Position numbers and translations under genes: made by a program. A stretch of DNA of 7,510 bases, from positions 1-7,510 of the forward strand of contig JAJRTK010000419.1 in NCBI GenBank assembly GCA_024278345.1, written 5' to 3'. This stretch comes from a bacterium (GTDB lineage Bacteria; CSSED10-310; JAJRTK01). Positions 2,627-6,778 of this stretch are shown piece by piece; the first letter of the stretch is position 1, and each line of letters starts with the position of its first letter. The notes beneath the pieces were generated by a model. The model was given only the letters and a program-made list of their open reading frames with translations, was not told the origin of the DNA and searched no databases.

Positions 2627-2879
2627 ATGAATCCCATCTCGCCAGCAATTGTCGGTCGAGAGGTGATCTACCCTGAAAGCGACGGGAAGCCCATGGCCGA
2701 CAATACGGAGCAGTTCTTCTGGATTGTGCTGATCAAGGAGGGTCTGGAAGCATTGTTTGCGGACCGGGAAAAGGTCTCCGTGGCGGGGGACCTTCTGTGG
2801 TACCCGGTGGAAGGTCGCCCCGATATCCGCCGAGCGCCGGATGCCATGGTGGCGTTTGGTCGTCCCAAGGGCCCCTGCG

Positions 2880-2893
2880 GCTCCTAGCTCCTA
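2880..2893 (+). repeat. 7-bp tandem duplication causing the frameshift
   Basis: GCTCCTA occurs twice back to back (2880-2886, 2887-2893). One copy fewer restores the Uma2 reading frame exactly, with the expected G-S-Y-L-Q-W reading. The duplication creates the TAG at 2885-2887. It could be a fixed mutation, a reversible slippage event or an assembly error. Confidence 0.9.
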
Positions 2894-3248
2894 TTTGCAG
2901 TGGCGTGAAGAAGGGATCGCGCCGCAAGTGGTGTTCGAAGTGTTGTCGCCGGGGAATACGAAGTACGAGATGGTGGAGAAGCTAGGTTTTTACGAGCGGT
3001 ATGGCGTAGAGGAATACTACTTGTGGGACCCTGATTCAGGTCGGCTCCAGGGCTGGATGCGGGAGGGAGCAGACCTTGCGCCGGTCTTCCAGATGGAGGG
3101 CCACCAGAGCTCGCGGCTGGGGGTGCGGTTTGAAGTGCGTGCCGGGAAGCTGGAGCTGTATGGTCCCGATGGTAGCCGCTTCTTGAGCTACGTGGAGCTA
3201 AAGCGGAAGATGGAGTGGGAACGGCGGCGGGCGGAGCAGGAAAGACAG

Positions 3249-3420
3249 CGGGCTCTCGTGGCGGAGCAAGCGGCGGAACGGGAAAAGTGGCAGGCGGATG
3301 AGGAAAGACGGCGGGCGGATGAGGAAAGACGGCGGGCTCTGGTGGCGGAGCAAGCGGCGGAGCGGGAAAAGTGGCAAGCGGAGCAGGAACGGCAGCGGGC
3401 TCTCGTGGCGGAAAAATCCG
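3249..3420 (+). repeat. Heptad-phased internal repeats in the Uma2 coiled coil
   Basis: A perfect 21-bp tandem duplication (7 codons, ADEERRR-type) occupies 3294-3314 and 3315-3335. A larger near-repeat starting CGGGCTCT begins at 3249, 3333 and 3396, spacings of 84 and 63 bp. All are multiples of 21 bp, so each expansion or loss keeps both the reading frame and the coiled-coil heptad register. Confidence 0.85.
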
Positions 3421-3528
3421 TGGACCGGGAACGGGAGCGCGCCGATCTGCTGGCGGAGCGACTGCGGCAGGTGGGGATCGATCCCCATGACTTGCACTGA
3501 GACTCCCGCCCTTTGTCGTACATAAAAA

Positions 3529-3603
3529 TGGCGGTCCCTACGGGGATCGAACCCGTGTTTCCGGCGTGAAAGGCCAGCGTCCTAACCACTAGACGAAGGG
3601 ACC
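3529..3603 (-). tRNA. tRNA-Glu (anticodon UUC)
   Basis: On the minus strand the acceptor stem GGTCCCT pairs with AGGGACC, followed by discriminator G and an encoded CCA (3531-3529). The D-arm is TCTAGTGGTTAGGA, the anticodon loop CTTTCAC (UUC) sits between CTGGC and GCCGG, and the T-arm is ACGGGTTCGATCCCCGT. The cloverleaf closely matches bacterial tRNA-Glu. A T-run (ATTTTTATG) directly after the CCA could help end transcription. It lies 61 bp downstream of the CUC-reading tRNA-Glu and is probably co-transcribed with it. Confidence 0.97.
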
Positions 3604-3611
3604 GCACAAGG

Positions 3612-3630
3612 TGGAAGCCTGTTGCTTCCA
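3612..3630. repeat. Hairpin in the spacer between the two tRNA-Glu genes
   Basis: TGGAAGC (3612-3618) pairs with GCTTCCA (3624-3630) around a 5-nt loop. On the minus-strand transcript it sits between the 3' CCA of the first tRNA and the 5' end of the second. It has no T-run, so it is more likely an RNA-processing or folding element than a terminator. Confidence 0.55.
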
Positions 3631-3664
3631 TAAGGCTTGAGATTGCCGTTAAATCCGGGACCAC

Positions 3665-3740
3665 TGGCGGTCCCTACGGGACTCGAACCCGTGTTTTCGG
3701 CGTGAGAGGCCGACGTCCTAGGCCACTAGACGAAGGGACC
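3665..3740 (-). tRNA. tRNA-Glu (anticodon CUC)
   Basis: On the minus strand the acceptor GGTCCCT/AGGGACC is identical to that of the neighbouring tRNA, with discriminator G and an encoded CCA (3667-3665). The anticodon loop CTCTCAC (CUC) lies between TCGGC and GCCGA, and the T-arm is ACGGGTTCGAGTCCCGT. It is the promoter-proximal member of the pair. The strong similarity to the UUC tRNA, with changes mainly in the D-loop and anticodon arm, suggests origin by duplication. Confidence 0.97.
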
Positions 3741-3776
3741 AGCAAGAAAACAACCGAATTTCGGCAAGTGGGGAGC

Positions 3777-3806
3777 TTATTAGCCTGTTTCGAGCTTTCC
3801 TGTCAA
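3777..3806 (-). promoter_or_regulatory. Sigma70-type promoter for the tRNA-Glu pair
   Basis: On the minus strand a perfect -35 TTGACA (3806-3801) is followed, after 18 nt, by the -10 candidate TAATAA (3782-3777). Shifting to CTAATA gives a 17-nt spacer. Transcription would start about 30 nt upstream of the tRNA-Glu(CUC) 5' end. The strength and position fit a stable-RNA promoter. Confidence 0.7.
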
Positions 3807-3890
3807 GAGTGGCTGAGCCTATGCAATCCGCCAGTTGCTGGAACTCCTTGCCATCCCTTATTGGTTAAAAGAGGGAATTGATTCGAAGTT

Positions 3891-3896
3891 GGAGGG
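3891..3896 (+). promoter_or_regulatory. Ribosome binding site of the helical-protein gene
   Basis: GGAGGG is followed by 8 nt and then ATG at 3905. This favours ATG 3905 over the in-frame TTG at 3878, which has only GAGGG (3871-3875) two bases away. TTG at 3902, 5 nt from the SD, is the other option. Confidence 0.65.
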
Positions 3897-3904
3897 AACT
3901 CTTG

Positions 3905-4657
3905 ATGTCGGGCGAGCGGGGCATTCGCGAAAGTGAGCTGGCGGAGCTCATTGGGATAGCGATGCAGCTTCAAGAACGGGCCGAGGAGCCCGGGGAGCAG
4001 CGCCTCTCCAAGGGGGACCTCTTTCAGATCGGGGAAAACCTGGGGATCTCGCAGCCGGTTATGGAAAATGCCCTGAGCAGCTACCGCGAGTTGCGGCGGG
4101 ACCTGTTCCGCTCGGCTTTAGGGGAACAGGTGCGGGAGGAGCTACTTCGGAAGCTGGGAGACGTGAAACTACGGGATCTGTACCGTGGCCGCGAGAAAAT
4201 GGTGGCGCGGATCGAGGCTCGGGAGCGGCATCTCCGGCTTTTGCGGAAGGAGATGGGCCTCTTGGAGCTTTGGAATCCCTTTTCCACCAGTCCCGAGCGG
4301 TCAGAGCTCCATCGGCAGAAAGAGGCGCTGAAAAACGAGCGGCGCCGATTGCGAGAGGTCGGGCGGCGTCTGGAAGAACGGGTGGAGGAGGTTCTGGACA
4401 TGGTGGGCCCTCTGAGCGTGGTCTTGCGAACCGCCCGAGTCGAGAAACTTCTCAAGGGATTGGGCGCGGCCCGTTTTTCCCCCGCGGGCCAGACCATCGA
4501 GGAGGCGATTCTGCATCAGCGAGCCATGCGCCGGACGATGCTCGACGCGTTTGGCCCCATTCCCGAGGGGGAGGAGCTCGCGCGGATGGTCTTGACGGCC
4601 TTGCCCAGCGTTTATGCGGAGCAGGAGGATTTCCTTGAAGGTGAGCTCGACGGTTGA
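3905..4657 (+). CDS. Hypothetical charged alpha-helical protein, first gene of a two-gene unit
   Basis: 250 aa from ATG 3905. No signal peptide or membrane segment is visible, so it is probably cytoplasmic. The N-terminal 60 residues (ESELAELIGIAMQLQERAEE ... LSKGDLFQIGENLGIS) look like a helical module seen at the start of many uncharacterised bacterial proteins: helix, then a small helix-turn-helix-like 'GDLFQIGENLGISQ' segment. A long Arg/Glu-rich stretch likely to form coiled coils follows (from REELLRKLGD to about LEERVEEVL). The C-terminal 90 residues (LRTARVEKLLKGLG ... AILHQRAMRRTMLDAFG) are helical without a family I can name. The stop at 4655-4657 lies inside the next gene, implying translational coupling. 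A weak promoter candidate is TTGCTG 3835 with TTATTG 3858. Confidence 0.8.
   Translation: MSGERGIRESELAELIGIAMQLQERAEEPGEQRLSKGDLFQIGENLGISQPVMENALSSYRELRRDLFRSALGEQVREELLRKLGDVKLRDLYRGREKMVARIEARERHLRLLRKEMGLLELWNPFSTSPERSELHRQKEALKNERRRLREVGRRLEERVEEVLDMVGPLSVVLRTARVEKLLKGLGAARFSPAGQTIEEAILHQRAMRRTMLDAFGPIPEGEELARMVLTALPSVYAEQEDFLEGELDG
4623..4628 (+). promoter_or_regulatory. Ribosome binding site deciding a TTG start for the TPR gene
   Basis: AGGAGG lies 6 nt upstream of TTG at 4635, within the end of the preceding gene. The in-frame ATG at 4614 has no SD upstream. A start at 4635 also gives a cleaner signal peptide (MKVSSTVEFLVAF). Confidence 0.65.
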
Positions 4658-6352: not shown

Positions 6353-6778
6353 GCCGGGATGGCGAAATTGGTATACGCAAGGGACTTGCGATGGCTGTGG
6401 CACCATAGGTGGTCCGCGAAGCCGCCGTGAGTGCGCCCGCGGAAACGCGGGACGTAGAACCTGGCTATATGCTGGAAACCCCGAGTATCCGCCGCCACCA
6501 GGCCTCCCGCCGCCGGAGCGGGCTGGAGGCCGGTGACAGTGCGGCGGTGCGGACAATCAGCAGGGAAGTCTCGAACCTGGCCCGCAAGGTTGCCGGCGCC
6601 CGCGAGGGCCCGATTCCATGACCCCTCAGAGACTGCACGCCGGGCGCCTGACCAGCGGAACCGCCAAGCGCGGAGCCGGCTGAAGGTAATGATACAGTCC
6701 AGCCCCCACGGCGACGTGGGGTAGAAGCGAAAATCCCTCGGACTTTTGTCCATGCGGGTTCGAGTCCCGCTCCCGGCA
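6353..6778 (+). tRNA. tRNA-Leu (anticodon UAA), interrupted by a group I intron
   Basis: Exon 1 is 6353-6387 and exon 2 is 6730-6778; joined they give an 84-nt class II tRNA. The acceptor GCCGGGA pairs with TCCCGGC, the discriminator is A6778, and no CCA is encoded. The D-arm is GGCGAAATTGGTATACGC. The anticodon stem AGGGA/TCCCT closes loop CTT-AAAA, so the anticodon is UAA. The long variable arm is GGAC-TTTT-GTCC and the T-arm GCGGGTTCGAGTCCCGC. The break falls between U34 and A35, the classic position of group I introns in cyanobacterial and plastid tRNA-Leu(UAA). Without splicing the transcript cannot fold into a usable anticodon arm. Confidence 0.95.
6388..6729 (+). ncRNA. Group I self-splicing intron in tRNA-Leu(UAA)
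   Basis: 342 nt, preceded by U6387 and ending in G6729, as group I introns require. A P2-like hairpin with GAAA tetraloop is at 6436-6451 (CCCGCG/CGCGGG). P7 is well supported: GACTG 6631-6635, within CAGAGACTGCAC, pairs with CAGTC 6695-6699 in GATACAGTCC. A P9 hairpin CCCCAC/GTGGGG is at 6704-6721, just before the 3' splice site. The order P7, P3', P8, P7', P9 fits subgroup IC3, to which tRNA introns belong; subgroup is an inference. P1 is less clear: ATGG/CCAT (6391-6394/6403-6406) with AGGT following could pair with exon ACTT, but the U·G pair falls one base off. There is no homing endonuclease frame. Confidence 0.9.

Follow-up and report, generated by a model that had tools for sequence, protein, structure and literature searches.

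The group I intron of tRNA-Leu(UAA) is the textbook case of an intron that predates plastids, and whether it reached its present hosts vertically or laterally is debated. The site is already known, as are the group I introns in it. A tRNA-Leu(UAA) gene split by such an intron also lies in the 7,510-nt stretch of bacterial DNA analysed here (the window). Is this the same ancient intron, and if not, how could another have come to occupy its position?

The host genome (G000) is a 6.06-Mb draft of 550 contigs, 87.9% complete with 2.12% contamination. Its phylum amounts to eight genomes in the collection searched; Cyanobacteriota comprise thousands of GTDB species. PsaA/PsaB homologues were not found in the host by a search in which the Synechococcus control was positive. 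Because the phylum has just eight genomes and PsaA/PsaB were not found, the host is not a cyanobacterium, which answers a question that an earlier note on this DNA had raised. The tRNA-Leu(UAA) genes of four relatives in the phylum (G001-G004) are uninterrupted, and RF00028 finds no further group I intron in the host and none in the phylum's seven other genomes. Elsewhere in the window, the minus strand encodes a protein with an FGE-sulfatase domain and a long Thr/Pro-rich repeat linker (266-2050), and the plus strand carries an apparently frameshifted gene for a putative Uma2-type endonuclease (2627-3500; frames 2627-2887 and 2757-3500 overlap). The protein of 3878-4657 has no relative in the phylum. 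An IS4/5-type transposase (DUF4096, under the Pfam cutoff) starts at the contig end (7404-7510, plus strand) and is the likely cause of the assembly break.

When introns are allowed, ARAGORN calls a tRNA-Leu(taa) with a 342-nt insert between U34 and A35, exactly as the earlier note had proposed. The joined exons also fold, as predicted there, into a complete class II tRNA of 84 nt, and they pair perfectly in both the 7-bp acceptor stem and the 5-bp anticodon stem. Default ARAGORN overlooks the split gene, and Rfam at gathering thresholds overlooks its intron. With this gene the genome's tRNA set is complete; for leucine, the remaining anticodons caa, cag, gag and tag are represented by one tRNA each. 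A search with the exons hits the genome at a single place, and the second, intact tRNA-Leu(UAA) that would have told against the earlier reading was not found in the 87.9% complete draft.

The insert has the architecture of a group I intron (Table 1). RF00028 (Intron_gpI) aligns to it, core helices included, at 37.7 bits (E=4.2e-8 in a 551-base search), a score obtained with permissive settings and lying under the Rfam gathering cutoff of 50 bits; the covariance match expected of a group I intron thus exists, though below cutoff. The P2, P7 and P9 pairings and the terminal G that the earlier note had pointed out are all present in the fold, the Rfam alignment and the exon boundaries, as parts of a full P1-P9 fold that ends in G at 6729. 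Unconstrained folding of the exon tail with intron nt 1-76 gives a P1 in which exon ACUU and intron GCG pair with CGUGAGU, followed by a 9-bp P2, and puts the wobble pair U34·G42 exactly at the 5' splice site. An alternative P1, GGACU/GGUCC, was rejected: it folds 9 kcal/mol worse and moves the wobble to U33. Across 27 distinct introns with the same type of core P3 is paired in 162 of 162 cells (shuffled partners reach about 70%, at most 80%), and P7 has a G-C pair where the relatives have A-U. Subgroup IA introns carry helices P7.1/P7.2 between P7 and the 3' strand of P3; these are absent here, where just CAC separates the two strands. No endonuclease gene is recognisable in the intron, and only short reading frames overlap it. 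Judged by this fold, the intron is predicted most likely to excise itself with guanosine as cofactor. That the copy is instead nonfunctional, with its intron unspliced or UUA read by another tRNA, is highly improbable: a second copy could sit in a gap of the incomplete genome, but no damage is seen in the core helices or in either exon, compensatory changes are present, and no other tRNA-Leu(UAA) was found in 6.06 Mb.

Table 1. Parts of the split tRNA-Leu(UAA) gene and its intron, in window coordinates
Feature	Position	Strand	Basis
5' exon of tRNA-Leu(UAA), last base U34	6353-6387	+	ARAGORN with introns
Group I intron, 342 nt	6388-6729	+	RF00028, 37.7 bits; ends set by exons
Internal guide sequence, P1 side, CGUGAGU; partner of exon ACUU and of intron GCG, with G facing U34	6426-6432	+	Unconstrained minimum-energy fold
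P2 hairpin, GAAA loop, within IC3-like module	6433-6455	+	Fold; identity to L147
Similarity switch zone, tRNA-Leu to phage-type, end of P2 to start of P3	6451-6461	+	tRNA-Leu matches stop at nt 73-74; best phage-type matches begin at nt 64-68
P3 5' strand, CCUGGC	6460-6465	+	Covariation, 27 distinct introns
P4 5' strand, UGCUG	6470-6474	+	Rfam alignment, inspection
P4 3' strand, CAGCA, in core motif ACAAUCAGCAGGGAAG (6553-6568)	6558-6562	+	Rfam alignment; motif common to phage-type introns
P7 5' strand, GACUG, guanosine-binding helix	6631-6635	+	Rfam alignment
P3 3' strand, GCCGGG	6639-6644	+	Covariation
P7 3' strand, CAGUC	6695-6699	+	Rfam alignment, covariation
P9 hairpin, CCCCAC-GGCGAC-GUGGGG	6704-6721	+	Fold; relatives keep loop, compensatory stem changes
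3' exon of tRNA-Leu(UAA), first base A35	6730-6778	+	ARAGORN with introns

The two ends of this intron resemble different families. Similarity was measured in a comparison with equal search space for a set of tRNA-Leu introns, picked by their exon, and a set of phage-type introns, picked by a core motif, so that neither set was selected on the part that yields the contrast. The tRNA-Leu introns called IC3-like here carry that label on account of their core motifs, with no subgroup model behind it. Intron nt 41-73 (6428-6460), comprising the internal guide sequence and P2, are identical at 31 of 33 positions to tRNA-Leu introns of Alphaproteobacteria among the matches listed; the best tRNA-Leu match, L147, reaches 94% over 33 nt (E=2.6e-9), and all such matches are confined to nt 41-74. 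No phage-type match begins before nt 47, and the best ones begin at about nt 64: L259 is 75% identical over 117 nt (nt 68-183, E=8e-16), with a second match of 94% over 34 nt (nt 232-264). The short motifs divide in the same way. The module GAGUGC-P2-GUAGAAC of the IC3-like tRNA-Leu lineage is present and the IC3-like core motifs CCGAGCCAAG and GUGUAGAGACUNGACGG are absent; the phage-type core signature, GCUAUAUGCUGGAA followed by ACAAUCAGCAGGGAAG, GACU and a P9 looped by GGNGAC, is present. The motif ACAAUCAGCAGGGAAG recurs in 117 stretches of viral sequence, of which many are group I introns. The core has no blastn match in INPHARED phages, and its relatives are therefore known only from IMG/VR contigs.

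Could the whole intron still be a fast-evolving IC3-like one whose core resembles phage introns by chance? Gene, site and P1-P2 are those of IC3-like introns, but over nt 67-334 (P3-P9), P5 architecture and P9 loop included, a phage-type profile scores 72.7 bits (E=4e-21), and the tRNA-Leu intron profile picks up two pieces at 7 bits each (E about 0.56), so this reading is scarcely credible. The same 7 bits back P1-P2 weakly across the IC3 family, the support there coming from a few close members. The identity that the earlier note suggested with the ancient cyanobacterial and plastid intron accordingly holds for the IC3-like P1-P2, which is closest to Alphaproteobacteria among the matches listed, and gives way in the core. 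Taken together, the similarities suggest that the only tRNA-Leu(UAA) detected in this host probably holds a natural hybrid intron, in which a tRNA-Leu P1-P2 is joined to a phage-type core and which would have been acquired laterally.

A phage-type intron might also have inserted independently at U34/A35, its P1-P2 converging on the IC3-like form without recombination. Pairing with the exon fixes the guide sequence, P2 hairpins with a GAAA loop and an AAC before P3 are widespread, and one phage-type intron natively has UGC...GUAGAAC (L315, found by searching for this very string). Against this, 4000 structure-matched random modules, with guide, GAAA hairpin loop and AAC fixed, complementary stems and 72% GC, reached at most 29/33 in their best matches to 95 tRNA-Leu intron 5' ends, as compared with the 31/33 observed; and 87 phage-type introns gave no match to nt 1-74, even when hits up to E=5 were admitted. 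Convergence of P1-P2 is unlikely on these figures.

The hybrid is seen on a single draft-genome contig, with no second record of it. Could an assembler have joined the tRNA-Leu gene of one organism to the phage intron core of another? The genome is a fragmented, metagenome-style draft with some contamination, and a transposase fragment stands at the end of the contig. Since the exons match perfectly in the acceptor and anticodon stems, however, such an artefact would need two false joins within 342 nt, both yielding a complete paired core; moreover, the P3 strands on either side pair together, and the gene fills the tRNA set of the genome. An artefact of this kind has only a small chance of being the explanation.

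If the hybrid is real, did it arrive inside a tRNA gene or enter one already there? No gene compared with the exons exceeds 86% identity; the best same-phylum gene reaches 85.7% and the split genes no more than 82.4%. Being closer to the same-phylum genes, the exons slightly favour entry of the intron into the host's own gene; they speak slightly, and not decisively, against a donor having supplied the whole tRNA gene.

How unusual is an intron at this site outside Cyanobacteria? A census pattern, the tRNA-Leu 5' exon followed by a base other than A, finds at least 119 stretches in cellular genomes other than the window's own. The taxa among the matches listed are Alpha-, Beta- and Gammaproteobacteria, Acidobacteria, Binataceae, Clostridia and one Chloroflexi MAG, and in most of the stretches listed the intron has an IC3-like core and a length of 207-330 nt. 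A tRNA-Leu(UAA) intron has also reportedly been described from a deep-subsurface gammaproteobacterium, by Vepritskiy et al. in 2002. Other group I introns known from bacterial tRNA anticodon loops sit in different tRNAs and have the usual IC3 core.

The tRNA-Leu genes collected in this way include several further arrangements. One Acidobacteriota MAG (L108:5551-6231) has a 681-nt tRNA-Leu(UAA) intron whose antisense strand contains a reading frame for an HNH endonuclease. In five Nitrospirae MAGs (L118, L120, L121, L131, L150) extra tRNA-Leu 5' halves, followed by TCCAATG..., lie just upstream of tRNA-Leu(UAA), twice in L118. In two Planctomycetota MAGs (L105, L110) a 26-nt hairpin is inserted into the anticodon loop of tRNA-Leu-like genes, and the tRNA-Leu-like bodies of L123, L137 and L145, with anticodons read as UGA, UUA or UGG, are variant or decayed genes.

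The same pattern occurs in 68 viral contigs of IMG/VR (L316-L383), 47 of which are IC3-like by profile; among those scanned, two (L326:18-212 and L383:8738-8925) stand above the Rfam group I cutoff. Some of the IMG/VR contigs with split tRNA-Leu(UAA) genes are dense in tRNA genes. According to a 2014 review, every phage intron then known sat in a protein gene (PMC3984707).

Plasmids carry such genes as well. With the L147 intron as query 1,281 plasmid records matched, mostly enterobacterial and 926 of them conjugative, and the two that were read (L426, L427) have IC3-like introns in complete tRNA-Leu(UAA) genes. In the Escherichia coli plasmid pB4-L (LC257589.1; L426:4001-4298) the gene is unannotated, its intron scores 157.6 bits with the profile, and it adjoins tmrB and aac(3)-IId; the other record is the Bradyrhizobium plasmid CP094621.1. 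Plasmids are a possible vehicle for lateral transfer of the intron.

Because the site is split in many non-cyanobacteria, in viral contigs and on plasmids, a non-cyanobacterial host is unexceptional. The earlier note had seen an out-of-lineage host as bearing on the choice between vertical inheritance and lateral transfer; at a site so widely split such a host is no surprise in itself. The data favour lateral acquisition of the intron. What sets the window's intron apart is its core. Among 191 candidate split genes listed, 148 have an IC3-like core (101 cellular, 47 viral), 42 are unclassified, some of these plainly not introns, and one is phage-type; the window's intron is the only phage-type one among the 149 classifiable introns at the site in the matches listed. 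As far as the open-access literature shows, neither a hybrid of this make-up nor a cellular tRNA gene with a phage-type core has been described before.

Comparison with its neighbours on either side locates the hybrid more closely. The cyanobacterial intron (Rudi and Jakobsen 1999; as cited in PMC5733544 and PMC3984707), as those citing works present it, shares with the window's the tRNA, the anticodon position and a self-splicing type without its own reading frame; it differs in host and in core, a distinction that is drawn by literature and motif only. IC3-like tRNA-Leu introns (L147, L086, L098 and others) have in common with the window's the site, the IGS GAGU, P2 and J2/3, the match over P1-P2-J2/3 being 31/33 for L086 as for L147. 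They diverge in having about 13 nt before the P1-P2 module, where the window's intron has 40, and a last hairpin before the 3' splice site that the window's intron lacks, and their profile does not recognise its P3-P9 core. That core, the P5 layout and the P9 loop GGCGAC are shared with phage-type introns (L259, L274, L258, L209, L276), whose P1-P2 ends in IMG/VR are unrelated to the window's and whose 3' ends are longer after P9. Unlike the window's, the phage-type introns examined sit in protein genes: the 3' part of the L259 host gene matches phage major head proteins, that intron itself encoding an endonuclease VII-type protein, and L258 interrupts another major head protein gene. One viral contig (L244, minus strand, about 3300-4030) has three similar phage-type cores in tandem over some 700 nt.

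How might the two parts have come together? The P1-P2 targeting module (nt 41-73) would descend from the IC3-like introns found at the tRNA-Leu site in many bacteria, and the P3-P9 core from the intron type of tailed-phage structural genes. A tRNA-Leu intron and a phage-type intron would have recombined in J2/3, a natural recombination point since both families have a similar A-rich AAC there, and lateral entry into the host lineage would have followed. Either order could apply: a phage-type core may have taken the place of the core in an intron already resident, or the guide module may have been captured by a phage intron. In the product the tRNA-type guide would set U34·G in P1 and hold the 5' splice site, P7 would bind guanosine, the phage-type core would carry out the two transesterifications and the terminal G would mark the 3' splice site. 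On this scheme it is reasonably likely that a phage-type core took an essential tRNA site by way of a tRNA-Leu P1-P2, and that group I introns can change their insertion site, or replace one another, by exchange of the 5' guide domain.

If the same site can hold an unrelated core, a shared site is no proof that whole introns share a common ancestor. The introns at this site in many bacteria, viral contigs and conjugative plasmids point to vehicles for lateral movement, and the hybrid suggests a simple route by which group I introns could be retargeted.
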